Translations under genes and position numbers: made by a program
Assembly (NCBI GenBank): GCA_024228575.1
Contig: JAAETH010000229.1
Span: forward strand, 1 to 51,546
Direction of reading: 5' to 3'
From: Actinomycetes bacterium
GTDB lineage: Bacteria; Actinomycetota; Acidimicrobiia; Acidimicrobiales; Poriferisodalaceae
DNA: 51,546 bases
Shown: positions 6,096-35,862 of the stretch, piece after piece
Position numbering within the stretch: position 1 is the stretch's first letter
Layout of the letters: each line of letters begins with the position of its first letter
The notes under the pieces: generated by a model
Seen by the model: the letters and a program-made list of their open reading frames with translations, nothing else
The model's database searches: none
What the model was told of the DNA's origin: nothing

Positions 6096-6135
6096 GTAGG
6101 ACCTCGTGTCGGGGCGCCCGCTCCGCGCCCGCACA

Positions 6136-6222: not shown

Positions 6223-6228
6223 TACCAT
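6223..6228 (+). promoter_or_regulatory. Putative -10 box (TACCAT) of the pafBC operon
   Basis: TACCAT fits TANNNT and ends eight bases before GTG 6237, which would give a leaderless or nearly leaderless transcript. No convincing -35 element is present. Confidence 0.35.
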
Positions 6229-6236
6229 GTCGACCT

Positions 6237-20168: not shown

Positions 20169-21019
20169 CAAGCGATAGCGGTTCCTCCGCACCAAACGAT
20201 GCGCAGATCAGGTACTGGAACGGGCCCGGAGCCGACGACTGGACCCTCGCCCAGGATCGAATCGAACTCATGCTCGCCCCGTTTGATTCGCTACTACTCG
20301 ACTACGTGGGGTTGGAGGAAGGCCAGAGCGTGCTCGATGTGGGATGTGGTTGTGGATCGACATCGCTGGCGGTTGCTGATGTGATCGGGCCAGATGGCAG
20401 CGTCATCGGCGTCGATGTCAGTACTCCAATGCTCGACCGGGCCAGGATTCGAGCCGGGCGTGGTAGCAACATCAATTTCATCGAGGCCGACGCTCAGACG
20501 ACCGACTTCAAGTCTCTTGGGGTCGATCACATCGTGTCTCGGTTCGGCGTGATGTTCTTCGACAATCCTGTCGCAGCGTTCTCGAACATCGCAACGGCCG
20601 GCGGTCCTGGAGCGCGATTGAGCTTCCTGTGTTGGCGGTCGCCAAAACTGAACCCCTGGTTTGGCTTCGCCGGCAGGGCCGTGAGGGATTTTGTCGAGTT
20701 GCCGCGCCCCGACCGGGGCGGCCCCGGGCCGTTCGCGATGGCCGATCACGAGGTGATCGCCGGCACCGTATTGGGAGCCGGATTCGCAGATCTCGAGATA
20801 TCGGAGCACGAGGTCGAGATCAGTTTCGGAGGTGGAGGTGAGATCGACGAGCTCGTCGACTTCGCCATGGGGTTCGGCCCGGTCGGGCGAGCCGTGGCGG
20901 GCGACGACGACCAGAGCGCCAGGGCTCGCGACGCCCTCACCTCAGCCATCGGTGAACTGTGGAGTGACCGGGCGATCCGTTTCGATGGCTCGTGTTGGTT
21001 GGTTCAGGCGAGGGTCTGA
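20165..21019 (+). CDS. SAM-dependent class I methyltransferase
   Basis: A 284-residue Rossmann-fold methyltransferase with motif I VLDVGCGCGSTSLAVAD (SAM-binding glycine-rich loop, about residue 56), motif II VIGVDVSTPML and the later VSRFGVMFFDNPVAAF. This matches the UbiE/methyltransferase-11 group. The substrate is unknown. ATG 20165 overlaps the ppk2 stop by four bases. Confidence 0.88.
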   Translation: MTSDSGSSAPNDAQIRYWNGPGADDWTLAQDRIELMLAPFDSLLLDYVGLEEGQSVLDVGCGCGSTSLAVADVIGPDGSVIGVDVSTPMLDRARIRAGRGSNINFIEADAQTTDFKSLGVDHIVSRFGVMFFDNPVAAFSNIATAGGPGARLSFLCWRSPKLNPWFGFAGRAVRDFVELPRPDRGGPGPFAMADHEVIAGTVLGAGFADLEISEHEVEISFGGGGEIDELVDFAMGFGPVGRAVAGDDDQSARARDALTSAIGELWSDRAIRFDGSCWLVQARV

Positions 21020-21040
21020 GCTCCGGGGGAAATCTAGGAG

Positions 21041-21046
21041 TACGAT
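21041..21046 (+). promoter_or_regulatory. Putative -10 box (TACGAT) for the NifU-N gene
   Basis: TACGAT fits TANNNT and ends seven bases before ATG 21054. A GGAG at about 21037-21040 could instead be a distant ribosome-binding site, so the leaderless reading is not certain. Confidence 0.3.
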
Positions 21047-21053
21047 CTCGGAC

Positions 21054-21344
21054 ATGGGCCAGAGCGTTCGAGTGGTCGAGAAGAAGTCAGAAGTTTTTCC
21101 CGGCACGGTCCGGTACGAAACAGATCGACCGCTCAGCGGCACAGGGCACAAGACGTATACAAATGCCGAGGGAGCGATCAACGATCTCGACCCGGCCGAT
21201 GTTCTTGCTCGACGGTTGTTCGAACGTGGTGGCATTGAACACGTTCATGTGAACGGCAACATCATCACCATCAGGTACGAACGAGGTTCCGATTCCGACG
21301 GGGTGGTCGAACTGGTCGAGAACCTGTTCCTTCACTACACCTGA
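21054..21344 (+). CDS. Stand-alone NifU N-terminal (Nfu-N-like) domain protein
   Basis: A 96-residue protein matching the Nfu N-terminal domain pattern: FPGTVRYETDRPL, then DLDPADVLARRLFERGGIEHVHVNGNIITIRY. In Nfu scaffolds this domain sits before the CxxC domain that holds the iron-sulfur cluster. Here no Cys is present at all, so it cannot ligate a cluster by itself. Similar single-domain proteins are common in actinobacteria and have no settled function. ATG 21054 is chosen because the longer frame from 20832 overlaps the methyltransferase gene. Confidence 0.8.
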   Translation: MGQSVRVVEKKSEVFPGTVRYETDRPLSGTGHKTYTNAEGAINDLDPADVLARRLFERGGIEHVHVNGNIITIRYERGSDSDGVVELVENLFLHYT

Positions 21345-21357
21345 CCCCCTCGCCCTA

Positions 21358-21386
21358 TTGTCAGTCGAACTGATGTTCGATAGATT
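21358..21386 (+). promoter_or_regulatory. SOS (LexA) promoter of imuA-imuB
   Basis: The 16-bp palindrome TCGAACTGATGTTCGA at 21365-21380 is a perfect match to the actinobacterial LexA box TCGAAC-N4-GTTCGA. It fills the 17-bp spacer between a -35-like TTGTCA (21358-21363) and a -10 TAGATT (21381-21386). Bound LexA would block RNA polymerase directly. The imuA start codon lies seven bases after the -10 box, so the transcript is probably leaderless. Confidence 0.88.
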
Positions 21387-21392
21387 TGAGGG

Positions 21393-22151
21393 GTGAGCAA
21401 AGGTTCGGTAGCTCGGCAACTGAGGTCTGTCACCTCTCCTCTCACGCTTGCTCGTGACAACGTCTTGCCTCTGGACGATGCCCTCGCCACAGTCATGCCC
21501 GGAGGAGTACTACGTCGAGGCACCTCGGTCGTGCTCGACGGCGTTGTCGCAACTTCTCTTGCTCTCGGTCTCGCCTCGCGGGCCAGCGTCGAAGGGTCGT
21601 GGGTCGCATTTGTTGGTCTTGACCTCCTGTGTCTGCCGACCGCAGAAGAGTTCGGCCTCGACCTGACCCATGTCGCACTTGTGGACGATCCCGGCGACCA
21701 ATGGGCAAATGTCATGTCGACTCTTGTCGGAGCGATCGACGTCGTCGTCACCTCAACACCAGAAAGGATCAGGGCACGGGATGGGAGAAGACTTGCGGCC
21801 CGTCTGCGCGAACGCGGCAGCGTCATCATCGAGCTCAAGTGTGGCCCCAGGTCGGCGATGCAGGGGGACGTTGTGCTCTCAGTCGACCGTCAGCGTTGGT
21901 ATGGGCTCGGGTGGGGTCATGGTTGCCTGCGCAGCCGCAGGGTCACCGTCAATGTGTCCGGGCGCGGGGCGGCGTCGATGTCGCGGGCTGTCGACCTGTT
22001 GTTGCCCGGCGATTCCGGCCGTCCTGAAGCCGTCGAACAGGCGGCGGCTCCAGAGGTGTTCCAGACATACGACACCGTTGCCGATGTCGCCGACCTGACC
22101 GCTCGTCTGGCAACGAAGGTTGCAGCCCGAACCGTCGAAGCCGGAGCATAG
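21393..22151 (+). CDS. imuA: ImuA-like mutasome protein (RecA fold)
   Basis: A 252-residue protein upstream of imuB. The pattern LPLDDALATVMPGGVLRRGTSVVLDG, then SWVAFVGLDLLCLPTAEEFGLDL and VDVVVTSTPERI is typical of the RecA-related ImuA/ImuA' accessory proteins of actinobacteria. The Walker A position reads DGVVATSLAL and lacks the GKT/S needed for ATP binding, so ATPase activity is unlikely. In mycobacteria ImuA' works with ImuB and DnaE2 in damage-induced mutagenesis. GTG 21393 is chosen because it is 12 bases after a perfect SOS box and seven after the -10. The stop touches the imuB start. Confidence 0.85.
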   Translation: MSKGSVARQLRSVTSPLTLARDNVLPLDDALATVMPGGVLRRGTSVVLDGVVATSLALGLASRASVEGSWVAFVGLDLLCLPTAEEFGLDLTHVALVDDPGDQWANVMSTLVGAIDVVVTSTPERIRARDGRRLAARLRERGSVIIELKCGPRSAMQGDVVLSVDRQRWYGLGWGHGCLRSRRVTVNVSGRGAASMSRAVDLLLPGDSGRPEAVEQAAAPEVFQTYDTVADVADLTARLATKVAARTVEAGA

Positions 22152-23795
22152 GTGTCGAAGGGTCGATCTACTACCAGGACGATGGTTGTCATCGCTCCAC
22201 ACTGGCCTCTGGCTGCAGCGGCTGTCACCCCTGGTATTCCTGCTGTGGTCGTCAGGGCAAATCGGGTCATTGCGGCCAATCCCGCCGCCCGGCTCCATCA
22301 TGTCGAGCCGGGTATGCGCCGTCGTGAATCGCAGGGCAGATGTCCACAGCTAGAGGTGTTAGAGCACGATCCAGATCGCGATGCGAGGCGCTTCGAGTCA
22401 GTTGTCTCAGCACTCGAGCAGTTCACCCCGCGGGTCGAGATTCTCGGACCCGGCCGATGTTCGTTCCCAACGCGCGGGCCTTCCCGCTATTTCGGCGGAG
22501 ACACCTCTCTCGGCGAACAGGTGGCCTCTGTCGTCGATTCCGAGATCGCCCATGTCTTCGGCGAGTCTGACTGTCCACCGGGGTTTCGGGCATGTGTCGG
22601 GGTAGCCGATGGCTTGTTCGCCGCGTCGCTTGCTGCCGAGATCCTTTCATCCGCTCCATCGGGTCGCAGCGATCGATCTCACCTCGTTGTGCCGGCGAAC
22701 ACCAGCAACAAGTTCCTTGCGCCGATGCCCGTATCGGCGCTCAGGCGTTGGTCGGCGCCCATCGACGATGGGGAACATCTGGTCGACCTGTTGTGGCGCC
22801 TTGGCCTGCGCACCCTTGGCGACGTTGCCTCCCTTCCCGCCTCCGACATGCTCGCCCGATTCGGAACCGACGGGGCTCGAGCCCATCGGCTTGCGTCGGG
22901 ACACGACGAGCGACCACCCGACACCCGCCCCGTTCCGCCTGAGTCGACAATCGAGACCGAACTCGACCCTCCGGCCGAGCGGGTCGACACGGCAAGCTTC
23001 GTTGCAAAGACCATGGCCGACGAGATGCACGCCCGGCTCGCCCGCGATGGTTTGGCATGTACACGGATCATCGTTGAGGCAATTACTGGAGCGGGAGAAT
23101 CGCTCAGCCGAACGTGGCGCCACGAAGGTGCATTATCTGCAAACGATGTAGCCGACCGCATGCGCTGGCAGCTGGATGGATGGCTTTCATCACGTCACAA
23201 GCCGACGTCTGGCATCACCTTGTTGAGGCTGGCCCCAGACGAGGTCGTCGCCGACGTTGGCAGGCAGCTCGGGTTCTGGGGAGGCCAGGCCCTCGAAACC
23301 GAGAGAGCGGCCAGGGCGCTGGCCAGAGTGCAGGGGCTGCTTGGCCCCGATGCTGTGTCGCTGCCCGAGAGGCGTGGGGGAAGGGGGCTCGGTGAGGCAA
23401 TTGGCAAGGTACCGCTTCCATTTGTCGACCTGAACGATCCGGACCGCAAGGTCGATTCCCCGTCGGCCGATGCGCCGTGGCCCGGCCGTCTTCCGGCTCC
23501 TTCGCCTGCGGTGTTGGGTTGTAGGTCTGTCGCCGAAGTTGTCGATGCGAATGGTGAGATGGTTTCTGTCAGCGGCAGGGGGGACCTGAGCGCAGATCCT
23601 GCGGTTGTTGTCTGGTCCGATGGTTCAAAATCTGCTGTCGTCTCGTGGGCCGGTCCGTGGCCGCTCGACGAGAAGTGGTGGGAACCACAACAGCACCGCC
23701 GGTTGGCCCGGTTCCAGGTGGTGCTGTCCGACGGCGGCGCCCACGTCATGTCGATCTCGAACCGGCGATGGCAACACGAGGGTGAGTACCAATAA
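22152..23795 (+). CDS. imuB: ImuB, Y-family polymerase-like mutasome subunit
   Basis: A 547-residue DinB/UmuC-type protein. The N-terminal strand where active Y-family polymerases carry their first metal-binding Asp reads VVIAPHWPLAAA, and the SxDE motif is replaced by PSRYFGG, so it should be catalytically dead, as expected for ImuB. The HhH-like segment LWRLGLRTLGDVASLPASDMLARFG is present. Residues 372-377 read QLGFWG, matching the clamp-binding motif known in mycobacterial ImuB (QLPLWG). It would tether DnaE2 to the sliding clamp. The GTG start is directly adjacent to the imuA stop, and there is no separate promoter. Confidence 0.92.
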   Translation: MSKGRSTTRTMVVIAPHWPLAAAAVTPGIPAVVVRANRVIAANPAARLHHVEPGMRRRESQGRCPQLEVLEHDPDRDARRFESVVSALEQFTPRVEILGPGRCSFPTRGPSRYFGGDTSLGEQVASVVDSEIAHVFGESDCPPGFRACVGVADGLFAASLAAEILSSAPSGRSDRSHLVVPANTSNKFLAPMPVSALRRWSAPIDDGEHLVDLLWRLGLRTLGDVASLPASDMLARFGTDGARAHRLASGHDERPPDTRPVPPESTIETELDPPAERVDTASFVAKTMADEMHARLARDGLACTRIIVEAITGAGESLSRTWRHEGALSANDVADRMRWQLDGWLSSRHKPTSGITLLRLAPDEVVADVGRQLGFWGGQALETERAARALARVQGLLGPDAVSLPERRGGRGLGEAIGKVPLPFVDLNDPDRKVDSPSADAPWPGRLPAPSPAVLGCRSVAEVVDANGEMVSVSGRGDLSADPAVVVWSDGSKSAVVSWAGPWPLDEKWWEPQQHRRLARFQVVLSDGGAHVMSISNRRWQHEGEYQ

Positions 23796-23818
23796 CAGCC
23801 AGGCGTATCGGTCGCCGC

Positions 23819-23824
23819 TACTAT
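23819..23824 (+). promoter_or_regulatory. Putative -10 box (TACTAT) for the 23832 HAD gene
   Basis: TACTAT fits TANNNT and ends seven bases before ATG 23832. It lies in the 36-base gap after imuB, so the HAD gene may be transcribed on its own and leaderless. Confidence 0.35.
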
Positions 23825-23831
23825 CCCGCTG

Positions 23832-24494
23832 ATGCGGTTGGCGGTCATATTTGATGTCGGTGGTGTCCTGGTCGAGTCTCCCTTCTTGGCCGCCATGCGT
23901 TGGCGCGACGAGATGAACCTGCCCAACGAGATGTTGCACATCTTCTTCGAGGAGTACGCCAAGGTTCCCGAACCGGGAACCGAGCCGCCGATGTGGCACC
24001 AGGTCGAGATGGGAAAGGCCACCATCGAGGAGTTCCTGGATCGCGTCCGTCCCGGTCTCGATGGATTGGTCGCTGACGATCATCCGGTTCATTCGGTGAG
24101 CGGGGACGACTTCAATGTGTTTCGCGAAGCGGGCGCCCACTGGCAGATGGTTCACAAGGTCAGGCAGCTGAGGGAGGCGGGGCACAAGACCGCCATTCTC
24201 ACGAACAACGTCCACGAATGGAGAGCTTGGCGAGAGGTCATTCCCGTCGACTGGTTCGACGTTGTGATCGATTCATCCGAAGTCGGCTTACGCAAGCCCG
24301 ATCCCGCCATCTGGCAGCTGACTCTCGAACGCCTCGGATGTTCCGCCGAGTGTTCGGTCTTCCTCGACGATCATCCGGCCAACGTCGAAGCCGCTGCCGA
24401 ACTCGGGATCGCAGGGGTGGTGGTTGGACCAGACATTGCAGCGGCCTTGGACGAGCTGGATGAAACGGTCGAGGCGATGATGCGGAGCGTGTGA
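23832..24494 (+). CDS. HAD-superfamily hydrolase (subclass IA)
   Basis: A 220-residue HAD protein with motif I VIFDVGGVLVE, a helical cap of about 100 residues, motif II ILTNNVHEW, motif III RKPDPAIW and motif IV VFLDDHPANVEAA. The second motif-I acidic residue is replaced by Gly (DxGG for DxD). That change is common in the branch related to the N-terminal domain of soluble epoxide hydrolase and to haloacid dehalogenases, and it makes ordinary phosphatase activity less certain. The stop overlaps the following membrane-protein start. Confidence 0.85.
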   Translation: MRLAVIFDVGGVLVESPFLAAMRWRDEMNLPNEMLHIFFEEYAKVPEPGTEPPMWHQVEMGKATIEEFLDRVRPGLDGLVADDHPVHSVSGDDFNVFREAGAHWQMVHKVRQLREAGHKTAILTNNVHEWRAWREVIPVDWFDVVIDSSEVGLRKPDPAIWQLTLERLGCSAECSVFLDDHPANVEAAAELGIAGVVVGPDIAAALDELDETVEAMMRSV

Positions 24495-25654
24495 TGGTGG
24501 CGGGGCTCGATCCTCACATCCAGCGCGATACCGAACGCTGGTTCCTCCACCGAGGTATCCCCCATTTCATCGACAGGTACAACGCTGCGGAGGACGTCTT
24601 CACACGCGCCCTTCCCGTACTCTCGCTGGCGTTCATGGCCGAGTTTGTCGCAGCCGCAGACACCGAATGGGACTGGTGGCACAATCTGCTGGCGATGGCC
24701 GGCGGCTTTGTGCTGCTCGTCGGCATGTATTCGGCGTTCAACATCTTGCGCGGTCGACGCCCCCTTCAACGTCCGAACGATGTTGGCACCCCCGAGTTGA
24801 TCGCCTTTGTGACGATTCCGGCCCTGCTGCCGCTGATCATCGGTGGGCGCTGGCGCACCGCCATGTTGACCGTGGTTGTCAACATCGTCGTTCTGATCGT
24901 CGTGTACGTGATCCTGTTGTACGGGCTCATACCGACCGCTCGATGGGCGCTCTCGCACATGTTCAGGCAGCTTGGGGGTGTGGGTCGGCTGATGGCCAGA
25001 TCGTTGCCCCTGGTGTTGGTGTTCTCGATGTTCATCTTCTTGAATGCCGAGATATGGCAGGTTGCGGCCGACTTCACCGGTACCTACTTCGGCATCAGTG
25101 TTGGTGTCCTTCTCGGCATCGCATCGGTATTTGTTCTGTTCCGGCTGCCGCGTGAGGTCGATTCGTTGCGGCGATTTCGCTCTTGGGAAGAGGTCGCGTC
25201 GCAGCTGTCGGATGCTCCGCTGGAGCCCGAGGACTGCGAGGGTCTCGAGGGGAAACCCGACCCACCGTCATTGACGAGAGCCGATTGGCTCAACGTCGGC
25301 ATGGTCTGGTGGTTCAGCCAGCTCGTTCAAGTCCTGCTCGTCGGTGCAGTGATCGCCGCTTTCTACATCTTGTTCGGCGTGTTCACCGTCCGCGAAGCCA
25401 CGATCCTGCAGTGGACCGAAAACGGTTCGGTTTCGGGATGGGATATCTCGGGAACCGACCTGACGGTCACATGGGAACTCGTCACGGTGGCCGGTTTCAT
25501 CGGCGCCTTCTCCGCATTGCAGTTTGCGATTTCGGCGGTTACCGACGAAACCTACCGAGAGGAGTTCCTCGGCGAACTCGTACACGACGTTCGTGAAGCC
25601 TTCGCCGTGCGTGCCGTGTATCTGGCCAGGCTTGGAGTAACCGTCAGCCGGTGA
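24494..25654 (+). CDS. Polytopic membrane protein of unknown function
   Basis: A 386-residue protein with about seven predicted membrane segments. There are groups of hydrophobic runs near residues 35-80, 95-145, 165-215, 270-300 and 325-345, with charged loops between. The conserved-looking LHRGIPHFIDRYNAAEDVFTR stretch precedes the first segment. No transport or catalytic motif was recognised. The start is ATG 24494 (TGATG with the HAD stop) or GTG 24491 (GTGA). Either way it is coupled to the HAD gene, so the two may work together. Confidence 0.75.
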   Translation: MVAGLDPHIQRDTERWFLHRGIPHFIDRYNAAEDVFTRALPVLSLAFMAEFVAAADTEWDWWHNLLAMAGGFVLLVGMYSAFNILRGRRPLQRPNDVGTPELIAFVTIPALLPLIIGGRWRTAMLTVVVNIVVLIVVYVILLYGLIPTARWALSHMFRQLGGVGRLMARSLPLVLVFSMFIFLNAEIWQVAADFTGTYFGISVGVLLGIASVFVLFRLPREVDSLRRFRSWEEVASQLSDAPLEPEDCEGLEGKPDPPSLTRADWLNVGMVWWFSQLVQVLLVGAVIAAFYILFGVFTVREATILQWTENGSVSGWDISGTDLTVTWELVTVAGFIGAFSALQFAISAVTDETYREEFLGELVHDVREAFAVRAVYLARLGVTVSR

Positions 25655-25707
25655 CAACGGGACGGACCGTCAGTGGTGATGAGTGGACAGGTGACCGCAT
25701 TGCGTGA

Positions 25708-27453
25708 TTGAATCAGCAATCTGTGGCTGTACGGAAGAATCCCAGCAGATCGTTGAAACGCGCCTTGGTGTCGGCTCTCGCCATTGTGGCGGTGCTGTCC
25801 ATCGACGCGCCTGTTGGTGCGCGCGAGGGAACCTCCAGGGGCTCAGAGATCGAGATCTGGTCGGCCGTTTCTGCGGTCGGAACCGGCGCCAGCCTTCCGG
25901 AGTTGGCACGCCCGGTGACATCGATCGCGGCAAACCCCGCCGGTGAGGGTTACTGGCTCGCGGCGGGCGATGGTGGTGTGTTCGCGTTCGGTGACGTCGG
26001 ATTCTTCGGGTCCGCTGGCTCGATCGAGCTGGCGGGTGATGTGGTCTCGATGGCTGCTCACATCGATGGTGCCGGCTATTGGCTGGCTACCGATGCGGGC
26101 GCTGTGCTCGCGTTCGGTTCGGCCCCCTTTGTCGGTTCGGTCAGCCACTTGCGGCTCGACGGGCTGGTCGTATCGATTGCTCCTACCACGGATGGGTTGG
26201 GGTACTGGCTGCTCGGCAGCGACGGTGGGGTGTTCGCATTCGGCTCAGCCGGCTACCACGGCTCTGGGTCCGGCCGGATGCAGCGACCCGCTGTAGATCT
26301 GGTTCCGACCGCGACAGGCGATGGCTATTGGCTCGTCGACGCCGACGGGAACATCCACGGGTTCGGCGATGCCCACCAGCTCGCCGCACCCACCAGCCGG
26401 CGAGGCAGCGTCACCGGTGCCGTTCGAAACGGAGCCGGTCTCGTCCTCGCCTGGGACTCGGGAGTTGTCGACGAGATAGGGCGTCGCCGCGCCGACCGGT
26501 CGGCGCTGGCGAACCTTCGAGAGGTTGTCGACATCGACAAGGGCGGCGCCGGGTTCGTCTTTGCGGCCGCGGGCGACCTGATCAGACGGCTCGGACCGAG
26601 CGTCGGCGTACGCGGATCCGCGGCACTCGACCAATTCGGTGAAGCGTCGCAAGCCCAGATGGGGGTCGCGGCGTTCTACGCGAGTTTTGCCAACGACCCG
26701 CACCTGCCGATCCGCATGCTCGATCAAATCCACGCAGAGGGTGCCATTCCGTTCATCACCTGGGAACCTTGGGACCCCGAGCAGAGCCGACAAGTCCAGC
26801 CACGTTTCCAGTTGAGAGACATCGTCGATGGACGCCACGACGAACTGATCTGGCGATGGGCGACCGAGGCGGCTTGGTACAACAAACCCTTCATGATCCG
26901 ATTCGCCCACGAGATGAACGGCGATTGGTACCCGTGGTCCGAGACCGTCAACGGAAACGAGCCGGGTGAGTTCGTCGCAGCGTGGCGACACGTGCACTCG
27001 ATCTTCGCGCGGGCGGGTGCTGACAACGTGACCTGGGTCTGGAATCCCAACGTCGAGGCACCATCGTCGATTCCTCTCGCCGACCTCTTCCCTGGTCATG
27101 ACGTCGTCGATTTCGTTGCAATCGATGGCTACAACGCGGGTTCCGCCCTGTCGTGGGGTGGATGGCGAAGTGCCGAGTCGGTGTTTTCGCGAGCCCTCGA
27201 CGAGTTGCGCGGGGCAGCCCCGGGTATCCCGGTCATCATCGGCGAGACCTCCAGCACCGAGTCCGGTGGCAACAAGGGGCAGTGGATTCGTGAGCTGTTC
27301 GCCTGGCTCGAGAGCGACAATCCCGACATCTCGATGGTCGTCTGGTTCGACGAGTCGAAGGAGACGACCTGGTGGGTTGGCAGCTCTCGATGGGCGTCGC
27401 AGTCGTTCGTCGAGGCCGGAACAGAGGCCTGGTGCGGCTGTCGAGCCGACTGA
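25708..27453 (+). CDS. Secreted GH26-type glycoside hydrolase with N-terminal six-repeat domain
   Basis: A 581-residue protein with a signal peptide (about residues 16-38). Repeats of the GYWLxxGDGGVFAFGxA type follow, with clear copies at residues 81, 123, 165 and 206 and two decayed copies at about 244 and 283, making six as in the CAP protein. Residues about 310-575 are a GH26-like TIM barrel: FITWEPWDPEQ, FMIRFAHEMNGDWYPW (acid/base Glu402) and PVIIGETSS (nucleophile Glu513). GH26 enzymes mainly cleave beta-mannans or related beta-glycans. The start is uncertain: TTG 25708 is listed, and GTG 25723 is equally possible. Expected to be extracellular or envelope-bound. Confidence 0.87.
   Translation: MNQQSVAVRKNPSRSLKRALVSALAIVAVLSIDAPVGAREGTSRGSEIEIWSAVSAVGTGASLPELARPVTSIAANPAGEGYWLAAGDGGVFAFGDVGFFGSAGSIELAGDVVSMAAHIDGAGYWLATDAGAVLAFGSAPFVGSVSHLRLDGLVVSIAPTTDGLGYWLLGSDGGVFAFGSAGYHGSGSGRMQRPAVDLVPTATGDGYWLVDADGNIHGFGDAHQLAAPTSRRGSVTGAVRNGAGLVLAWDSGVVDEIGRRRADRSALANLREVVDIDKGGAGFVFAAAGDLIRRLGPSVGVRGSAALDQFGEASQAQMGVAAFYASFANDPHLPIRMLDQIHAEGAIPFITWEPWDPEQSRQVQPRFQLRDIVDGRHDELIWRWATEAAWYNKPFMIRFAHEMNGDWYPWSETVNGNEPGEFVAAWRHVHSIFARAGADNVTWVWNPNVEAPSSIPLADLFPGHDVVDFVAIDGYNAGSALSWGGWRSAESVFSRALDELRGAAPGIPVIIGETSSTESGGNKGQWIRELFAWLESDNPDISMVVWFDESKETTWWVGSSRWASQSFVEAGTEAWCGCRAD
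25912..26382 (+). repeat. Four clear ~126-bp coding repeats of the GYW/DGGVFAFG type
   Basis: Tandem units at 42-, 42- and 41-residue spacing with the same core as the CAP protein repeats at 5259-5957. Two degenerate units follow to about 26600 (AGLVLAWDSGVVDEIG and AGFVFAAAGDLIRRLG). Confidence 0.8.
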
Positions 27454-27533
27454 CGCCATTCAGCGCGCCCCGGTTGAGCGGTCGGGCATGTCGCCTCTAC
27501 ACACCCGGACCGGGTTGGTGAGACACTGCAGGA

Positions 27534-29459
27534 GTGGATCCACACTTCGTGCTCGATGTCCGCGCCGAGGTCCCCGAGACCGTGCACTTCGACGACCTCG
27601 GCGACCAGCTTCGGCTAGCGGCAAAGGAACCGATGCGCGGCTTTGCCACCGGTCGCTTCGACAGGTCGAACATCACCGTCACGATCGACCTCGACGACAT
27701 GTACGAAGGTGTCACCGTCCTCGGCTTCGCCTTCACCCAATTTGCAATGCCGGTCATCGGGTCGCGTCGCTCGGCGATCGATTTCGCACCCACTCCGCAG
27801 CTTCAATCGCCCGCGGCCATGCTCCCAGCACTTCTGCGACGAAGCGACGGCATGGTGTGCCTGCTTGCCCCGCTCGACTCGTGGCATGAGCAGATCATCA
27901 CTGTCGATCAGGACGATCAGGGTGTTCACCGATTGCGGTGGGGATGGCACGGCGATCTCGATCGGGTAGAAGAGGAGTTCTCGACGACGCTCGGTATCTA
28001 CCGAGGATTGTCGGCGACCGAGGTGTTCGCGGCCTGGCGGGACGAACTCGACACTGCCGGGGAACTGGTCGAGCGTTCGGACGATGCCGATCCTGTTGTC
28101 AGCCACCTTTCATATTGGACAGACAACGGCGCCGCCTATTGGTACCGAACCGAACCCGGAATCGATATCGCCGGCACACTCGAGGCCAAGCTCGAGGAGC
28201 TAGAGCAACTGGGTGTGCAGGTCGGATCGGTCGAGTTGGACTCGTGGTTCTATCCACACGAGGTGGGCAGACCCGTCGTCGACGATGGTTACCTGCCCGA
28301 TGTGCCACCGACCGGGATGCTCGAATGGCTCCCCCGGCCCGACGTGTTGCCCCGTGGGTTCGATGGCCTAGGCCCGCGGCTTGCCGCGAAACCCCTGATC
28401 TTGCACAGCCGCCATATCTCACCGCAATCGCCCTACCTGGAGGAGGGTGAATGGTGGGTCGATTGGGCCGCTCATCCCGTCGATCAGGACTTCTTCGCCA
28501 GATGGTTCGATTCGGCTCGCAGCTGGGGCGCGACCTGTGTGGAACAGGACTGGATGATGCTGGCCTGGTTCGGTGTTCGACAGTTGCGCGAGGTGCCGGG
28601 ACGGGCGGCGGAGTGGCTAAACGCTCTCGCTCGGCATGCCGCGGAAGCAGAGATGTCGCTCATCTGGTGTATGTCGACCCCCGCGGACATGATCGCTGCG
28701 GCCGGGCTCGATCGCGTCTGTGCAGTACGTACCAGCGACGACTATCGCTTCGCCGACGACCCGGCCAGATTGTGGCACTGGTTCGTGACGGTCAATCGTT
28801 TGATCGACACCCTGGGTCTCGTCGCGTTCAAGGATTGTTTCTTCACGGCCGATCTCGAGGGTGCAACCGAGTCGATCGATGGTGACGAACACCGCGAAGT
28901 CGAAGCCCTGCTGGCGGCGATGTCGGCTGGGGTTGTCGGAATCGGTGACCGAATCGGTCGGAGCGACCCCGTCATCATCGACCGTCTGTGTCGACCCGAT
29001 GGGCTGCTGGCGAAGCCCGATCGCCCGCTGGCGATCGCCGATCAGAGCATCTTTCGGGACTGGGCCGACTCTGGGGGCATCTGTTGGTCGACGACCTCCT
29101 CCGGTGAGTGGCTCTATGTGGTCGCACTTCACACGGCCGATACCGACGCGGCAATCGTCGACCGTTTCGACCTTCCTTCGAAGATGCTCGTATATGACTG
29201 GCGCACAGGCGAAGCGTCACCCGACATGGTGATCGACATCGAGCTCGGGCGACGAGATTGGGCCCTTTTTGTCTGTTGCCCCCTGGAGGAGCGTGGCGGT
29301 CGGAGGCGATCTCTGATCGGCGATGCCTCCAAGTACGCGACGATGAGCCGTCAGCGGGTCCGCTACGACGGCGAGACCGGCACATGCCTGCTCGCTGCCG
29401 GCGAAGCCCCAGCGAAGCTGCGCTGGTGGATCGAGGGCGAGGGCGTTCTCGACCGATGA
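27534..29459 (+). CDS. Glycosidase-like TIM-barrel protein (melibiase/GH36-like)
   Basis: A 641-residue protein without a signal peptide. A beta-rich N-terminal domain (to about residue 190) precedes a barrel with HLSYWTDNGAAYWYR, VGSVELDSWFYPHE, CVEQDWMMLAWFG (candidate nucleophile Asp) and VRTSDDYRF (candidate acid/base Asp). A C-terminal beta-domain follows. The order resembles the GH27/GH36/GH31 clan, but the exact family was not recognised, so the substrate is open. It starts at GTG 27534, 80 bases after the GH26 gene on the same strand. A shared role in glycan breakdown is inferred from this position only. Confidence 0.65.
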   Translation: MDPHFVLDVRAEVPETVHFDDLGDQLRLAAKEPMRGFATGRFDRSNITVTIDLDDMYEGVTVLGFAFTQFAMPVIGSRRSAIDFAPTPQLQSPAAMLPALLRRSDGMVCLLAPLDSWHEQIITVDQDDQGVHRLRWGWHGDLDRVEEEFSTTLGIYRGLSATEVFAAWRDELDTAGELVERSDDADPVVSHLSYWTDNGAAYWYRTEPGIDIAGTLEAKLEELEQLGVQVGSVELDSWFYPHEVGRPVVDDGYLPDVPPTGMLEWLPRPDVLPRGFDGLGPRLAAKPLILHSRHISPQSPYLEEGEWWVDWAAHPVDQDFFARWFDSARSWGATCVEQDWMMLAWFGVRQLREVPGRAAEWLNALARHAAEAEMSLIWCMSTPADMIAAAGLDRVCAVRTSDDYRFADDPARLWHWFVTVNRLIDTLGLVAFKDCFFTADLEGATESIDGDEHREVEALLAAMSAGVVGIGDRIGRSDPVIIDRLCRPDGLLAKPDRPLAIADQSIFRDWADSGGICWSTTSSGEWLYVVALHTADTDAAIVDRFDLPSKMLVYDWRTGEASPDMVIDIELGRRDWALFVCCPLEERGGRRRSLIGDASKYATMSRQRVRYDGETGTCLLAAGEAPAKLRWWIEGEGVLDR

Positions 29460-29471
29460 CTCCTGTCGCCG

Positions 29472-29817
29472 TTACGTCGTAGGAGCCATGTCGGCGAGGC
29501 AGTAGGTCATGGCGGCTGGGTCGCTCATGACCGTCCAGTGTTCGAACCGCTCGATGGGTGACGCTCCGAGTTGTCGGTGAGCTGCCACCACCTCGTCTCG
29601 GTGTGGTCCGCACCCGACATCGAGATGGGTCCGGGTGGCCTCGATGTCGTCGACGTGAAGATCGACATGGATCCGCGGCCCCTCCGATGTGTGTTGCACT
29701 CGCAGGTACGCGTCACCCTCATCGGGTAGGAGTGTTGCGAACTGTTGCCTGTCGCCGCGCGGTGTCGAAGGCCGTCGAAGCCTGATCGATGAAGGCCGTG
29801 AGCCAGCGGACGGTCAT
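29472..29817 (-). pseudogene. VOC/glyoxalase-like protein gene, broken by an internal deletion and frameshift
   Basis: Reading from ATG 29817 gives MTVRWLTAFIDQASTAFDT, the usual start of actinobacterial VOC proteins, but this frame stops after 32 codons. A second frame begins at about 29758 with RGDRQQFATLLPDEGDAYLRVQ and continues through HVDLHVDDIEATRTH to the stop at 29472. In intact relatives these two parts are joined by about 20 residues containing an FW...VTG segment, which is missing here. A deletion of a length not divisible by three explains both changes. It lies three bases after the stop of the upstream gene on the same strand. Confidence 0.75.
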
Positions 29818-29820
29818 TGC

Positions 29821-30204
29821 CTACCGGTCCGTCAGTGCGGCCATCTGCTTCTGGTACACGCCCATGTCGAAGTAGTCGCGCCAGAGAGAGATCCTGCCCT
29901 CGTCGTCGACTTCGAACACACCGGCGATGGGCAGCTCGAGCCATCCGTCTCCGATCTTGAACCGGTCGAGGCGCTCGTTGACGACGGTGTTGCCCATCGT
30001 CCATTCGCGCAGGACGGGCCATTCGACCTCTGACGCCGGAGCCAGGAAGGCGTTGAGGGTTGCAGCCATCGCCTCGCGGCCCACTATCGGGTCCATCGGC
30101 ATGTTCTCGTATGAGATGTCTGGGGCGGCCAGGGAGGCGGCCGCACCGACGTCCTTGCGTTCGATGGCGGCGATAAAGGCACTCACAACTTCGCTCGGTG
30201 TCAT
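29821..30204 (-). CDS. Limonene-1,2-epoxide-hydrolase/NTF2-like protein
   Basis: A 127-residue protein of the NTF2-like cone fold closest to the LEH group: FIAAIERKDVGAAASLAAPDISYENMPMDPIVGREAM, then VLREWTMGNTVVNERLDRF, ISLWRDYFDMG. LEH enzymes use an Asp-Arg-Asp triad to open epoxides, and the RLDRF and WRDYFD segments are in the right order to supply it. The reaction and substrate remain inferred. ATG 30204 is chosen; a far longer open frame upstream on this strand is antisense to real genes. The broken VOC gene follows three bases downstream. Confidence 0.82.
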   Translation of the reverse strand: MTPSEVVSAFIAAIERKDVGAAASLAAPDISYENMPMDPIVGREAMAATLNAFLAPASEVEWPVLREWTMGNTVVNERLDRFKIGDGWLELPIAGVFEVDDEGRISLWRDYFDMGVYQKQMAALTDR

Positions 30205-30351
30205 GGATCGACAGTAGTTCAGCCCTCCGGGAGGTCGACCATCAGCTCCCTTGTGCTGCTGGTCGGATGACCAGAGTCTCCGTCCAGGCGAGTATCGAGG
30301 TGGGCCCCGAACAGCGATCCGACTCCAGTTAGGATCCGAACGCTCGATCCG

Positions 30352-31077
30352 ATGCCGGGAGTTCCGCTGTCTACCTATTTGTTCGCGTTCGCCATGGTCG
30401 CGCTCGGCTGCTGTGTGCAGAGTTCTGTCGGCTTCGGGGCAAACCTCGTCGCGATGCCGACGATCGCGCTGCTGGCCCCCGAACTCGTGCCTGGAGCGGC
30501 ATTGTTCGCGATAAGCATCATGAACATCTTGATGTTTCTCCGCGATTGGCACGGTCTCGAGCTGAAGCCCGTCGGCGACGCATTGATGGGACGGGTTGTC
30601 GGGACCGTGATCGGTGCCAGCCTCCTGGGGAAGTTGTCCGAGGATGGTCTGCGACTGCTCATCGCCATCGTGGTGCTCCTCATCGTGGTGATCTCCCTCG
30701 TGTCGATCGCCCCACGCCGCACACGCGTCAACATGATCACAGCCGGGACCGTGTCGGGGTTCGGCGCTTCCACGGCGGGGATAGGTGGCCCGCCGGTCGC
30801 CCTGATGTTCCAGAACGCGAAGGGTCACAACATCCGCGGCTCGATGGCCGGCTTTTTTATGGTCGGAACGGTGATGACTCTCATCGGGCTCACCTTCGCA
30901 GGCGAGTTCGGTACCCACGAGCTGAAATGGGGCGCCTCGTTGGTTCCGGCGGCGGTCGTCGGGTTTGCCGCCAGCCGCTTTGCCATTCCATACGTGGACC
31001 GGGGCTACACGCGTCCGGCCATCCTGATCCTGTCGAGTACCGCCGCAGTTGTTCTCGTGCTCCGGGTACTGCTGTAA
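30352..31077 (+). CDS. TauE/SafE-family membrane permease (second copy)
   Basis: A 241-residue membrane protein with about eight hydrophobic segments. It has the N-terminal family motif (CVQSSVGFGANLVAMP) and the second-half copy (GTVSGFGASTAGIGGPPVALMFQ). Proposed to export or import sulfite or other small organic anions. It is only distantly similar to the copy at 12.1 kb, so it is not a recent duplicate. The LLM oxidoreductase gene follows within 10 bases on the same strand. Confidence 0.85.
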   Translation: MPGVPLSTYLFAFAMVALGCCVQSSVGFGANLVAMPTIALLAPELVPGAALFAISIMNILMFLRDWHGLELKPVGDALMGRVVGTVIGASLLGKLSEDGLRLLIAIVVLLIVVISLVSIAPRRTRVNMITAGTVSGFGASTAGIGGPPVALMFQNAKGHNIRGSMAGFFMVGTVMTLIGLTFAGEFGTHELKWGASLVPAAVVGFAASRFAIPYVDRGYTRPAILILSSTAAVVLVLRVLL

Positions 31078-31086
31078 TCGGTGGTC

Positions 31087-32127
31087 ATGCGCATCAAGGC
31101 CGGCCTCGCGAACGACGACCTGAAGGCGGTACCAGAACACATCGCTGCGATCGAGTCGGCTGGGTTCGACGGTGTGACGGTCGCCGAGAACGCACACGAC
31201 CCGTTCCTGCCGTTGGCGGTGGCTGCGGTCAACAGCGAGAGGATCGGCCTCGAGACGGGTGTGGCGATCGCCTTTCCGCGCAGCCCGATGATGGCGGCGA
31301 ACGTGGCCTGGGACTTGCAGGCAGCCTCGAATGGACGATTTGTGCTGGGCCTGGGATCCCAGATCAAGGCTCACAACGAGCGGCGTTTCTCGACAACCTG
31401 GTCGGCGCCGGCTCCGAGGATGCGCGAGTACGTGGCGGCGGTTCGAGCCATCTGGCGGACCTGGCAGAACGGTGACCGTCTCGACTTTCGGGGTGATCAC
31501 TACACGTTCACTCTCATGACCCCGAACTTCTCGCCGGCCCCTCTCGATGTTTCGGCTCCGCCGATCAAGATCTCGGCCGTGGGACCAAATATGTTGAAGC
31601 TCGCCGGTGAGGTGTGTGACGGTGTGTCGCTCCACGGCTTCTGTACGCGCGACTACATCGCAAACCAGATCATGCCGAGCCTCGAGCAGGGGATGGCGCG
31701 TACCGACCGTAGGCGCGAACACTTCGAAGTCTCCGGTGGTGGTTTCGTCGCAACGGGCGCGACCGATGAGGATGTCGCCAAGGCCGTCGAGTGGATCAGG
31801 ATCCGGGTCGGCTTCTATGGCTCGACCCGTGCGTATTGGCCGGTGCTGGCCGAGCACGGTCTCGAAGATCTGGGACACAAGTTGCTCGACATGTCCAAGA
31901 CCGGAGGTTGGGAACAGATGGCTGGTGAGGTGAGCGACGATGTGGTGCGCCTCTTCGCTGCCGTCGGCCGCCACGACGAGCTCGAGGATGCGATCGAGGA
32001 GCGTTTCGGCGGCCTGGTTGATGCGATCAACCCGACCACACCTCCGTCGCCGCCCAACAGCCTTCCGGCCGATCTCATCGGGGACCTCAAGAAGATCGAA
32101 TGCCCGTTCCAGGCATTCGCCACCTAG
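31087..32127 (+). CDS. LLM-class (F420-dependent-type) oxidoreductase
   Basis: A 346-residue luciferase-like TIM barrel: IAAIESAGFDGVTVAENAHDPFLPLAVAA, GLETGVAIAFPRSPMMAANVAWDLQAAS, GRFVLGLGSQIKAHNERRF and PPIKISAVGPNMLKLAGEVCDGV. This pattern fits the actinobacterial LLM enzymes that use F420 in place of FMN. Cofactor choice is inferred from family and from cofC being in the window. ATG 31087 is preferred; GTG 31081, six bases earlier, is possible. The substrate is unknown. Confidence 0.87.
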   Translation: MRIKAGLANDDLKAVPEHIAAIESAGFDGVTVAENAHDPFLPLAVAAVNSERIGLETGVAIAFPRSPMMAANVAWDLQAASNGRFVLGLGSQIKAHNERRFSTTWSAPAPRMREYVAAVRAIWRTWQNGDRLDFRGDHYTFTLMTPNFSPAPLDVSAPPIKISAVGPNMLKLAGEVCDGVSLHGFCTRDYIANQIMPSLEQGMARTDRRREHFEVSGGGFVATGATDEDVAKAVEWIRIRVGFYGSTRAYWPVLAEHGLEDLGHKLLDMSKTGGWEQMAGEVSDDVVRLFAAVGRHDELEDAIEERFGGLVDAINPTTPPSPPNSLPADLIGDLKKIECPFQAFAT

Positions 32128-32153
32128 ATCGAGCGCCTCCTCCCAAATCGGGG

Positions 32154-32183
32154 TTGACAAGGAGCGAACAAATGTTCGATCAT
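32154..32183 (+). promoter_or_regulatory. SOS (LexA) promoter of dnaE2
   Basis: GCGAACAAATGTTCGA at 32164-32179 matches the LexA box TCGAAC-N4-GTTCGA at all but the first base. It lies between a perfect -35 TTGACA (32154-32159) and a weak -10 candidate GATCAT (32178-32183), 18 bp apart. The dnaE2 ATG begins eight bases after the -10, so the mRNA may be leaderless. The -10 assignment is weaker than at imuA. Confidence 0.82.
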
Positions 32184-32190
32184 CGAGAAC

Positions 32191-35100
32191 ATGGGCTTCA
32201 GCAATCCCGGCGTTTCGTGGACCGAACTCGAGGCTCGATTGTCGGGTCGTTTCGACGGTTCGAGAGCAGATGGTGGAGACGCCCCGGCCTGGTCTCAGAA
32301 GAGGGCTTCATTCGAAGTTCCGAGCTTCTCGCGCCACCGGTCGGGCACCCCGTACGCAGAGCTTCACTGCCACTCGAACTTCAGCTTCCTCGACGGCGCC
32401 TCACACCCTGAGGAACTCGTGACCGAGGCTGCAAGGCTCGACCTCGAGGCTCTGGCAATCACCGACCACAATGGTTTCTACGGGGTGGTCAGGTTCGCCG
32501 AAGCAGCCCGCGAGGTTGGTATGGCGACCGTGTTCGGTTGTGAATTGTCACTCGGCATGACGGCTCCACAGAACGGGGTGGCTGACCCGGAAGGTGAGCA
32601 TCAGATCATCCTCGCCAGGGATCCGCAGGGGTACGCCGCTCTCGGCTCGCTCATCTCAAGAGCCCAGATGGCCGGCGAGAAAGGGGCACCTCTTTGTTCG
32701 ATGGACGACGTTGCCGAAGCTGCTGCTGCGGGTGCTGCTGACCACTGGGTGTTGCTGACCGGCGGCCGAAAGGGACGCGTGCCGAGAACCCTCGTCGAAC
32801 GTGGGCCCTCTGCGGCCGGTGTCGAGCTACAGCGTCTGGTCGACATGGTCGGCCGTCACAACGTATGTGTCGAGCTGTGGGATCACGGCGACCCTCTCGA
32901 CGGGGCGCGCAACGACGACCTCGCCCGACTCGCTGCCCGGTGCGGAACCGGCCTGGTCGCAACCAACAACGTCCACTACGCAACCCCGGCCAGGCGGAGG
33001 CTGGCGACAGCCCTTGCCGCCGTCAGAGCCCGGCGGAGCCTCGAGGATCTCGATGGGTGGTTCCCGCCCTCTGCTGCGGCTCACATGCGCTCTGGTGACG
33101 AACAGGCCAGACGGTTCGTTCGTTATCCCGGAGTTGTCGAAGCCGCTGCCGAACTCGGACGCGAGTGTGCATTTGATCTGAAGCTCGTCGCCCCGAACCT
33201 GCCACCGTTTCCATGCCCTTCGGGTCACAGCGAGATGAGCTGGTTGCGCGAGATCGTCAGGCAAGGGGCCGTGAAACGCTACGGACCCCGCGATGACGAG
33301 TGGGTTCCAGGGGCTTGGGGACAGGTCGAACGTGAGCTCGACGTCATCGAAGAGCTTGGGTTCCCCGGCTATTTCCTGGTCGTCTGGGACATCGTCGAGT
33401 TCTGTCGGGTCAACGACATCTTGTGCCAGGGCAGAGGTTCGGCAGCGAACTCGGCCGTGTGTTACGTGCTCGGGGTCACCAAGGCCGATTCGGTCAGCCT
33501 AGGCCTACTGTTCGAACGGTTCCTGTCACCCGAACGTGATGGGCCGCCCGATATCGATATCGATATCGAGAGTGGACGTCGAGAAGAGGTCATTCAGTAC
33601 GTCTACAAACGGCACGGCAGAGCCCATGCCGCCCAGGTCGCCAACGTCATCACCTACCGTGCGAAATCGTCCATCCGAGACATGGCCAAGGCGCTCGGTT
33701 ATGCGACCGGTCAACAGGATGCGTTCGCAAAACAACTCGATCGTTGGGGTGCCCTGTCGGAGATCGTCGAAGGCAAGGCCGAGCAGAACACCGCAGGCGA
33801 CTCGCAGATCCCCATCGATGTCCTCGAGCTCGCCGCCCAGGTCGAACACTTCCCCCGTCATCTCGGTATCCATTCGGGAGGGATGGTCATGTGCGACAGG
33901 CCGGTCGTAGAGGTCTGCCCGGTCGAGTGGGGACGGATGGCGGACCGCAGCGTCCTCCAGTGGGACAAGGAGGACTGCGCCGCGGCTGGGCTCGTCAAGT
34001 TCGACCTTCTCGGCCTCGGCATGCTCACCGCCTTACACCTGTCGGTCGACCTGATCGCTCAACACCACGATGTCGACATCGACATAGCGACCCTCCCTCA
34101 GGACTCCGAGGTGTACGACATGTTGTGCGCCGCCGACTCGGTCGGTGTCTTTCAGGTCGAATCGCGCGCCCAGATGGCGACCCTTCCGCGCCTGCGGCCA
34201 CGGAACTTCTACGACCTTGTCGTGGAGGTCGCCCTCATCCGCCCCGGGCCCATCCAGGGTGGATCGGTCCATCCCTACATCCGCCGGCGAAACGGCAAGG
34301 AACCGGTCACCTATTTGCACCCACTGCTCGAGAACTCTCTGCAGAAGACACTCGGTATTCCCCTGTTCCAGGAACAGCTGATGCAGATGGCCATCGATGT
34401 TGCCGGGTTCACGCCGGCGGAGTCCGACGAACTCCGTCAGGCCATGGGGTCGAAGCGCTCGCAGGAACGTATGGCCCGTCTCGAACAGCGCCTCTACAAA
34501 GGCATGGCAGAGCGTGGAATAACCGGGGCGATAGCCGACGAGATCTTCGACAAGATGGCCGCCTTCTCGAACTACGGATTCCCCGAGAGCCACTCGGTCT
34601 CGTTCGCCTACCTGGTCTACGCATCCAGCTGGATCAAGCTGCGTTACCCAGCCGCGTTCTGTACGGGTCTGTTGAACGCCCAACCGATGGGATTCTATTC
34701 GCCGCAGTCGCTGGTGCTCGATGCCCGCCGCCACGGTGTTGTCGTCAACACACCCGACCTGAATGCCTCGGCAGACCAGGCGATCCTCGAGCCCTGCGAG
34801 GAGTCCTTCGGTGGTGTCGCTGTGAGGTTGGGTCTGTCGTCGGTGCGTGGAATAGGCGATGACCTTGCGGCCCAGATTGCCGAGAACGGCCCCTACGGGT
34901 CGATGGAGGATCTTGTCAGGCGAGCCGACGTGAACATCAACCATGTTGAAGCCCTGGCGACGGCGGGTGCGTTCGGTTGTCTGGGGCTCGAGAGGCGGGC
35001 GGCACTTTGGCAGGCAGGGGCGGTCATCCAATCGCGCTCCGATCGTCTACCCGGAATCATCACAGGCACCCACGCACCACAACTCCCCGGCATGAGCGAG

Positions 35101-35505
35101 CAGGAGGAGGCCATTGCCGACCTGTGGGCAACAGGGATTTCCCCCGATGGACACCCGACCACATTTCTTCGCGAGGATCTCGATCGAATGGGTGCGACCA
35201 CGGCTGTTGGCCTCCGCAGTATCAACAGTGGAACCCGTGTGTGGGTCGGTGGGGTGGTGACACATCGTCAGAGGCCTGCGACCGCCGGGGGAACACTTTT
35301 TATCAACCTCGAGGACGAGACGGGGTTGATAAACGTCGTCTGCAGCAAGGGGTGCTGGATACGCCACCGGCGGGTTGCCCGTAGCCAGCCCGCTCTGCTC
35401 ATTCGGGGGCGCCTCGAAGCCACTGAGGGTGTCTACAACGTGATCGCAGAAAGGATCGAGCCCTTGGCGGTGGCAGCCTCGGTGCCGTCGCGCGATTTTC
35501 GTTGA
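32191..35505 (+). CDS. dnaE2: Error-prone DNA polymerase DnaE2
   Basis: A 1104-residue C-family polymerase of DnaE2 length. The PHP domain starts with AELHCHSNFSFLDGASHP (His59, His61). The palm carries PPDIDIDIESGRR (Asp residues near 454-458) and the third acid lies further on. KDMAKALGY-like and GDS/SFAYLVYASSWIK finger motifs are present, with an OB fold near the C-terminus (GTRVWVGGVVTHRQRPATAGGTLFINLEDETG). The shorter C-terminus separates it from replicative DnaE1. In mycobacteria DnaE2 performs damage-induced translesion synthesis with ImuA' and ImuB. It has its own LexA box 11 bases upstream and is 8.4 kb from imuB. Confidence 0.95.
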   Translation: MGFSNPGVSWTELEARLSGRFDGSRADGGDAPAWSQKRASFEVPSFSRHRSGTPYAELHCHSNFSFLDGASHPEELVTEAARLDLEALAITDHNGFYGVVRFAEAAREVGMATVFGCELSLGMTAPQNGVADPEGEHQIILARDPQGYAALGSLISRAQMAGEKGAPLCSMDDVAEAAAAGAADHWVLLTGGRKGRVPRTLVERGPSAAGVELQRLVDMVGRHNVCVELWDHGDPLDGARNDDLARLAARCGTGLVATNNVHYATPARRRLATALAAVRARRSLEDLDGWFPPSAAAHMRSGDEQARRFVRYPGVVEAAAELGRECAFDLKLVAPNLPPFPCPSGHSEMSWLREIVRQGAVKRYGPRDDEWVPGAWGQVERELDVIEELGFPGYFLVVWDIVEFCRVNDILCQGRGSAANSAVCYVLGVTKADSVSLGLLFERFLSPERDGPPDIDIDIESGRREEVIQYVYKRHGRAHAAQVANVITYRAKSSIRDMAKALGYATGQQDAFAKQLDRWGALSEIVEGKAEQNTAGDSQIPIDVLELAAQVEHFPRHLGIHSGGMVMCDRPVVEVCPVEWGRMADRSVLQWDKEDCAAAGLVKFDLLGLGMLTALHLSVDLIAQHHDVDIDIATLPQDSEVYDMLCAADSVGVFQVESRAQMATLPRLRPRNFYDLVVEVALIRPGPIQGGSVHPYIRRRNGKEPVTYLHPLLENSLQKTLGIPLFQEQLMQMAIDVAGFTPAESDELRQAMGSKRSQERMARLEQRLYKGMAERGITGAIADEIFDKMAAFSNYGFPESHSVSFAYLVYASSWIKLRYPAAFCTGLLNAQPMGFYSPQSLVLDARRHGVVVNTPDLNASADQAILEPCEESFGGVAVRLGLSSVRGIGDDLAAQIAENGPYGSMEDLVRRADVNINHVEALATAGAFGCLGLERRAALWQAGAVIQSRSDRLPGIITGTHAPQLPGMSEQEEAIADLWATGISPDGHPTTFLREDLDRMGATTAVGLRSINSGTRVWVGGVVTHRQRPATAGGTLFINLEDETGLINVVCSKGCWIRHRRVARSQPALLIRGRLEATEGVYNVIAERIEPLAVAASVPSRDFR

Positions 35506-35612
35506 GGCACAAGATCTGAGACATCGAAGCCGAACGGGAACGATTTGTCGAGCCAGGTAGTTGAAGGGGGAGTACAGGCCCTCTTGCTGGGCCAGAGGAG
35601 ATACGGAAAGAC

Positions 35613-35804
35613 ATGACGGGGGACACGAACAACCGCAGGGCCGAACGCCGTCTCCGCAGGAGAGCCAACCACCTGCGATGCGAGGCAAACAACAAGCTCC
35701 AGCCGTTGGCAGACGCACTCAGGCGCCGAGCTTCAGAGCTCGAACTAGAGGCGGCGATCCTCGGCCAACAGCTTCGTCCGATTCCCTTGAGGACCGGCCG
35801 ATAG
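35613..35804 (+). CDS. Small Arg-rich helical protein, unknown
   Basis: A 63-residue ORF with a GAGGAG ribosome-binding site about 14 bases before ATG 35613. It is predicted all-helical, with a very basic first half (RRAERRLRRRANHLR) and an amphipathic second half (LADALRRRASELELEAAILGQQL). No homologue was recognised. It lies between dnaE2 and the metallopeptidase gene, on the same strand. It could be a nucleic-acid-binding peptide or chance coding; the ribosome-binding site and the heptad-like spacing favour a real gene. Confidence 0.5.
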   Translation: MTGDTNNRRAERRLRRRANHLRCEANNKLQPLADALRRRASELELEAAILGQQLRPIPLRTGR

Positions 35805-35849
35805 ATCGAGGTGGCGGGTCCTTGCCCATCACACTGATTGACAACGAGA

Positions 35850-35855
35850 TAACTT
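35850..35855 (+). promoter_or_regulatory. Putative -10 box (TAACTT) for the metallopeptidase gene
   Basis: TAACTT fits TANNNT and ends seven bases before GTG 35863, giving a leaderless layout. A TTGACA at 35838 is too close to act as its -35. Confidence 0.35.
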
Positions 35856-35862
35856 CTCGACG

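Follow-up and report, generated by a model that had tools for sequence, protein, structure and literature searches.

How are the parts of a damage-inducible polymerase system kept under common control when its genes lie apart? The question is raised by contig C229 of an Acidimicrobiales assembly (G000; 960 contigs totaling 6.15 Mb; completeness 96.9%, contamination 3.47%), whose 51,546 nt make up the window analyzed here and which carries imuA′ and imuB in one place and dnaE2 8,395 nt further on (imuB stop to dnaE2 start), in agreement with the 8.4 kb given in an earlier note on this DNA. We consider it very likely that these genes constitute an SOS-induced ImuA′-ImuB-DnaE2 translesion mutasome encoded in two neighboring, co-directional LexA-controlled units, with repression, induction, complex formation and mutagenesis expected by analogy with the known families. 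The system is of an already known kind: the split LexA-controlled cassette known from mycobacteria, here in an Acidimicrobiales bacterium. Its features in the window are as follows.

21358-21386, plus strand: predicted imuA′ promoter, TTGTCA-17-TAGATT (sigma70 consensus scan), its spacer filled by box 1
21365-21380: LexA box 1, TCGAACTGATGTTCGA, no mismatches, ending 12 nt before the imuA′ GTG
21393-22151, plus strand: imuA′, Rv3395c-type RecA-like accessory factor, 252 aa, GTG start (NF058630, 124.7 bits; cut-off 65)
22152-23795, plus strand: imuB, inactive Y-family polymerase homolog, 547 aa, immediately 3′ of imuA′ (PF00817, 38 bits; cut-off 23.2)
32154-32183, plus strand: predicted dnaE2 promoter, TTGACA-18-GATCAT (sigma70 consensus scan), lying over box 2
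32164-32179: LexA box 2, GCGAACAAATGTTCGA, one mismatch, ending 11 nt before the dnaE2 ATG
32191-35505, plus strand: dnaE2, error-prone C-family polymerase, 1104 aa, ATG start (NF004225, 1456.5 bits; cut-off 939)

LexA boxes and mutasome proteins

Judged by their sequences, the three genes are those of an ImuA′-ImuB-DnaE2 translesion mutasome of an Acidimicrobiales bacterium. ImuB also matches several DNA polymerase IV models, all below their cut-offs, and in an alignment with two DinB proteins of its own genome it keeps none of the catalytic Asp or Glu residues, the two first-motif acids and the SIDEA Asp-Glu pair being replaced by Ile, Pro, Gly and Arg; Gly occupies the SIDEA Asp position in all 65 aligned ImuB sequences. 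When DnaE2 was aligned to solved Pol III alpha structures, PDIDID and the KFDLLGL stretch in the region of the third Asp were found to be kept; by this alignment the polymerase aspartates, which we take to be the PDIDID Asp residues and this third Asp, are intact.

The earlier note had described a perfect box before imuA′ and a 15/16 box before dnaE2, both adjoining start codons and overlapping promoters, and the positions, mismatch counts and distances listed above bear out this description. A sigma70 consensus scan of positions 20800-36000 on both strands returned two sites in total, each enclosing one box; because this number equals the shuffle level (mean 2.2), only the coincidence of the sites with the boxes is informative. 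The genome-wide site search that the note had proposed gave 33 occurrences of the strict 14-base core CGAACNNNNGTTCG in the 6.15-Mb assembly versus 6 for the pattern read backwards, and two occurrences within the window, exactly boxes 1 and 2, where ~0.28 would be expected in 51.5 kb at the genome-wide rate. It is true that loose matches are not rare, the 16-base pattern with at most two mismatches occurring 15 times in the window (mean 4.35, largest 12, in 100 dinucleotide shuffles), as would be expected if the boxes were chance palindromes in front of constitutive genes. The strict core is rare, however, and it stands before mutasome genes in many coded families, where it tracks the split or fused state of the locus, so that we regard a chance origin as extremely improbable.

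One LexA gene was identified in the genome, at C302:11265-11882 (223.2 bits; cut-off 110.95). The recA of this genome is preceded by the LexA-type site ACGAACAGGCGTTCGA, in which the core is exact with one mismatch to the 16-base palindrome, and lexA by two overlapping LexA-type sites with two mismatches each; a LexA of its own and CGAAC-N4-GTTCG-type sites upstream of lexA and recA are thus both present, as is characteristic of an actinobacterial-type regulon. Together with the protein identities and the retention of both sites in relatives, this supports the proposal of two LexA-controlled units serving one mutasome.

Split and fused loci among relatives

Two sets of relatives were compared: 80 genomes of the order, own genome included, and 80 named loci fetched with DnaE2, the record titles of which name many Acidimicrobiales, Acidimicrobiia or unspecified Actinomycetota. 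Ten loci of the second set duplicate first-set sequences, and their removal left 70. Loci were divided into split and fused at a boundary of 300 nt between imuB and dnaE2, which could be applied to 56 of the 80 genomes (those with both genes on one contig) and to 41 of the 70 loci; 24/80 genomes and 32/80 second-set loci were left unclassed because the parts lay on different contigs, contigs were cut, or imuB was not found. A box was scored as an exact GAAC-N4-GTTC core in the 260 nt preceding the first aligned codon, the background of this core being 0.05 per 260 nt with real sites included; the rule misses G069, whose core falls within the alignment by ~30 nt, and L259, aligned only from residue 53 onward.

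ImuA′ scored over its cut-off in 73/80 first-set genomes, and imuB lies 5′ of dnaE2 on the same strand in all 56 classable ones. In 47 of these the two genes are split, with 938 to 8,531 nt between them, and in nine they are fused (-155 to 82 nt), showing that the split arrangement is not special to this genome. The inserts differ between families; those shared between genomes are frequent in the window's family alone, apart from a few cross-family exceptions (clusters 10, 24 and 32).

The exact core is present upstream of imuA′ in 62 of 71 scorable first-set genomes and upstream of dnaE2 in 59 of 69. At dnaE2 its presence follows the arrangement of the locus: 46/47 split versus 0/9 fused genomes in the first set (Fisher p = 1.3e-9, kinship ignored), 20/21 versus 0/9 when counted once per family (p = 7e-7; the window's family, f1, is present in both groups), and 25/29 versus 1/12 in the second set without overlaps (p = 4.6e-6). 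Over the combined 97 one-contig loci, own included, dnaE2 has its own core in 71/76 split and 1/21 fused cases. On a quick maximum-likelihood tree of 95 DnaE2 sequences (LG+G4, no mixture; two of 97 rows were too short), the split or fused state requires no fewer than 11 changes and core presence 12, and in 10 independent split/fused pairs the core follows splitting in 6.5 on average, is unchanged in 3.5 and opposes it in none (sign test, median p = 0.031, range 0.016-0.063). Because the independent pairs never oppose it, the association between splitting and an own box holds beyond kinship, with modest statistical weight, and the counts do not separate gain from loss.

The spacing within these promoters is also shared. 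Among relatives with an exact core, the box ends 10-14 nt before the start codon in 47/62 imuA′ and 39/59 dnaE2 cases, and a TANNNT element starts -2 to +3 nt from the box end in 45/62 and 24/59, compared with 5% and 7% in shuffled flanks; the start-codon rule picked an in-frame start touching the box in 2/62 imuA′ and 7/59 dnaE2 cases. A -10 element usually lies 6-8 nt from the transcription start. Since the spacing of box and -10 element places the predicted transcription start on the start codon, the imuA′ and dnaE2 mRNAs are probably leaderless, that of imuA′ beginning on its GTG. The recA start, as chosen by rule, follows its box by 143 nt (the open frame extends at most 22 codons further up), and the LexA protein match begins ~90 nt from the nearer lexA site; with these sites well upstream, the short box-to-start spacing is not general among SOS genes of this genome.

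In the mechanism that we propose, LexA in the undamaged cell would occupy the palindrome in each promoter, where it covers the -35/-10 spacer, and block RNA polymerase. RecA filaments formed on single-stranded DNA would cause LexA to cleave itself, opening both promoters, and the resulting mRNAs would probably begin at the start codon. ImuB, as a catalytically dead Y-family scaffold, and ImuA′ would then assist DnaE2 in error-prone synthesis across lesions.

Several observations weigh against this account. After correction for the tree the p value is modest (0.03), and roughly one in three independent pairs shows no change of the core with splitting. By the rule, an exact dnaE2 core is absent from five split loci (G069, L259, L292, L299 and L305), one fused locus, L289, does carry one, and in genus g4 none of the nine scorable genomes has an exact imuA′ core, these nine being all of the imuA′ misses. 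A -35-like TTGAC, TTGCC or TTGTC stands upstream of the box in only 15/62 imuA′ and 31/59 dnaE2 cases, and the spacing from box to start varies in some families. With respect to ImuB, Glu occupies the column of the first catalytic Asp in 9/65 sequences, and the clamp-binding motif of the window protein is only plausible, reading GKVPLPF where many relatives show QRVPL, QRLPF or RLVPWG.

The sites of genus g4 have an arrangement of their own. At eight loci (L063, L070, L077, L080, L083, L084, L086 and L088) two or three GAAC-N4-GTTC-like sites follow one another at 15-16 nt intervals in the dnaE2 promoter, and the imuA′ sites consist of degenerate GTTCGT repeats in tandem, the recA site being canonical. 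A changed LexA motif in this genus was rejected in its simple form, as recA keeps CGAAC-N4-GTTCG in 9/9 g4 stretches. The fused member G004 still has degenerate one-mismatch sites before dnaE2, and its imuB-dnaE2 gap looks as if it had closed recently. G037 (90% complete) and G038 (84% complete) may have lost the mutasome.

Possible further regulatory inputs and the extent of unit 1

The earlier note held the two units to be tied together by LexA alone, a wording that is too strong. Two tandem WYL-domain regulator genes lie at 6090-8083 (plus strand), 13 kb from imuA′, the second with a PafC helix-turn-helix (PF19187, 82.9 bits), and form a PafB/PafC-like pair, the other actinobacterial DNA-damage regulator. 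In mycobacteria the split cassettes are controlled by LexA and PafBC alike according to the available text of PMC10421592, so PafBC could in principle drive the present units as well, as could read-through from upstream genes, the same-strand oxidoreductase gene ending only 63 nt before dnaE2. The search for a PafBC-type motif was made with the consensus that we take to be TTGTCRGTG-N8-TANNNT. With up to one mismatch in the first part and a spacer of 7-9, this motif is absent from all 142 upstream stretches searched, each covering 300 nt before imuA′ or dnaE2 (a few loci are present in duplicate, and the probably foreign contig C576 is included), and PafBC co-control was set aside on this result. 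We consider such additional inputs rather unlikely.

Between the two halves the window contains the following genes.

23832-24494, plus strand: HAD-family hydrolase (PF00702, 62.9 bits), separated from imuB by 36 nt; may be the third gene of unit 1
24491-25654, plus strand: multi-pass membrane protein of no known family, 387 aa, its first 4 nt shared with the HAD gene; may be the fourth gene of unit 1
25708-27453: GH26-like protein
27534-29459: 641-aa frame without Pfam match
30352-31077: TauE/SafE-like protein
31081-32127, plus strand (that of dnaE2): F420-dependent oxidoreductase

The earlier note had called these unrelated metabolic genes, which fits the GH26-like, TauE/SafE-like and F420-dependent oxidoreductase genes toward dnaE2 and is too strong for the HAD and membrane protein genes; likewise, its two LexA units stand, but its description of the first as an imuA-imuB pair may fall short. 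We see even chances that unit 1 is a four-gene LexA operon, imuA′-imuB-HAD-membrane protein, in which case the SOS response would also raise a phosphatase and a membrane protein. The 36-nt gap after imuB and the 4-nt overlap between the next two genes suggest this extension, as does a terminator scan in which sites were no more frequent than by chance (8 versus 7.9 expected), although the scan places a weak terminator-like site (23826-23844) over the start of the HAD gene. Counting this genome, 20 have HAD relatives between imuB and dnaE2, and the HAD and membrane protein genes follow imuB directly in G008 and after one extra frame in G009; in most listed genomes of the window's family, by contrast, the HAD gene lies beyond opposite-strand genes. 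The membrane protein is matched in 25/80 genomes, counting its own; several coded families have it between imuB and dnaE2, others elsewhere. Its gene stands on the same strand between imuB and dnaE2 also in G040, G043, G054 and G065, and on the same strand upstream of dnaE2 in 6/80 named loci (one being the G009 sequence, and three without imuB found on the stretch), but it is located elsewhere in G044, G067, G078 and genus g4 and is present in G072 and G037, which have neither an ImuA′ over the cut-off nor a good DnaE2. Given these placements, the link of the membrane protein to the mutasome and its LexA unit is suggestive only.

The membrane protein itself has no Pfam family above cut-off (LPG_synthase_TM matches weakly below it) and no PDB sequence match at E ≤ 1. 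Its fold, modeled from seven sequences with a mean predicted local distance difference test score of 77.1 and a predicted template modeling score of 0.65, gave no Foldseek match in PDB at E ≤ 0.001.

Elsewhere in the genome, an exact core abuts the ATG of a dinB (C310; named by PF00817) and another overlaps the GTG of an apparent ruvC (C553; named from its sequence by eye). Candidate further SOS genes are an HNH-type protein (C57, L310; named by eye) and a 110-aa frame of unknown function (C552, L331), with exact cores 14 and 15 nt upstream, respectively. A third perfect 16-base site, on C603, was rejected as a promoter site, since it lies inside a long frame that by eye reads like RpoB. Another dnaE2 start, the second in the assembly, lies 12 nt downstream of a perfect LexA box (L122, G000:C576:5831-7482). 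This gene was rejected as a paralog, being 92% identical to the dnaE2 of G062, from another coded family, with the next rows among the 12 best at ≤74%; because of this identity the contig is probably foreign to the assembly, recent transfer being the alternative. The size of the assembly, 6.15 Mb versus 3.9 Mb (77% complete) for the genus-mate G001, with which the window shares 87% DnaE2 identity, was weighed alongside.

Known cassettes and the meaning of the second box

The term split cassette reportedly originates with Erill 2006. Contiguous operons usually have one box and ImuA rather than ImuA′. LexA-regulated imuA/imuA′-imuB-dnaE2 cassettes, both contiguous and split, are already described in the available text of PMC3919608, PMC6511836 and PMC10421592. 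As far as these texts extend, the window resembles the split cassettes of Mycobacterium tuberculosis and M. smegmatis in having ImuA′ beside ImuB, a separate dnaE2 and LexA on both parts (PMC10421592, PMC6511836, PMC3919608), and differs from the PafBC-controlled mycobacterial form in that no PafBC-type motif matching the above consensus was found; here both halves lie within 8.4 kb on one strand. With the contiguous imuA-imuB-dnaE2 operons of other bacteria it shares the same three functions and LexA regulation, by the same partial texts (PMC3919608, PMC6511836), but it forms two units rather than one operon, fused forms being found in 9/56 classable first-set relatives. A leaderless SOS transcript is described in the available text of PMC2897130 for M. 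tuberculosis lexA, whose transcription start coincides with the start codon; in the present genome it is the mutasome genes that are predicted to be leaderless, and the recA and lexA sites lie well upstream.

No account of the relation between splitting and an own box was found in the literature searched, a body of text that excludes most subscription papers. A search on LexA, Acidimicrobiia and dnaE2 gave no occurrence of Acidimicrobiia among the matches listed, and one on the SOS response and Acidimicrobiia gave papers that are environmental by title.

A broader and more speculative scenario, which we hold to be doubtful, would have the mutasome cassette opening and closing repeatedly (at least 11 changes) with order, strand and close neighborhood kept, while a module of ~30 nt, combining LexA operator and leaderless promoter and ending at the start codon, was gained or lost at dnaE2 in step, and an uncharacterized membrane protein was taken into the SOS unit of the window's subgroup as a membrane-linked arm. 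To return to the two LexA-controlled units, the relatives amount to a natural experiment: a fused dnaE2 is nearly always without its own LexA site and a separate dnaE2 nearly always has one. Selection thus appears to keep the co-induction of the halves, not their co-transcription, and the same split design can now be followed through an order whose members are known mostly from metagenome assemblies.

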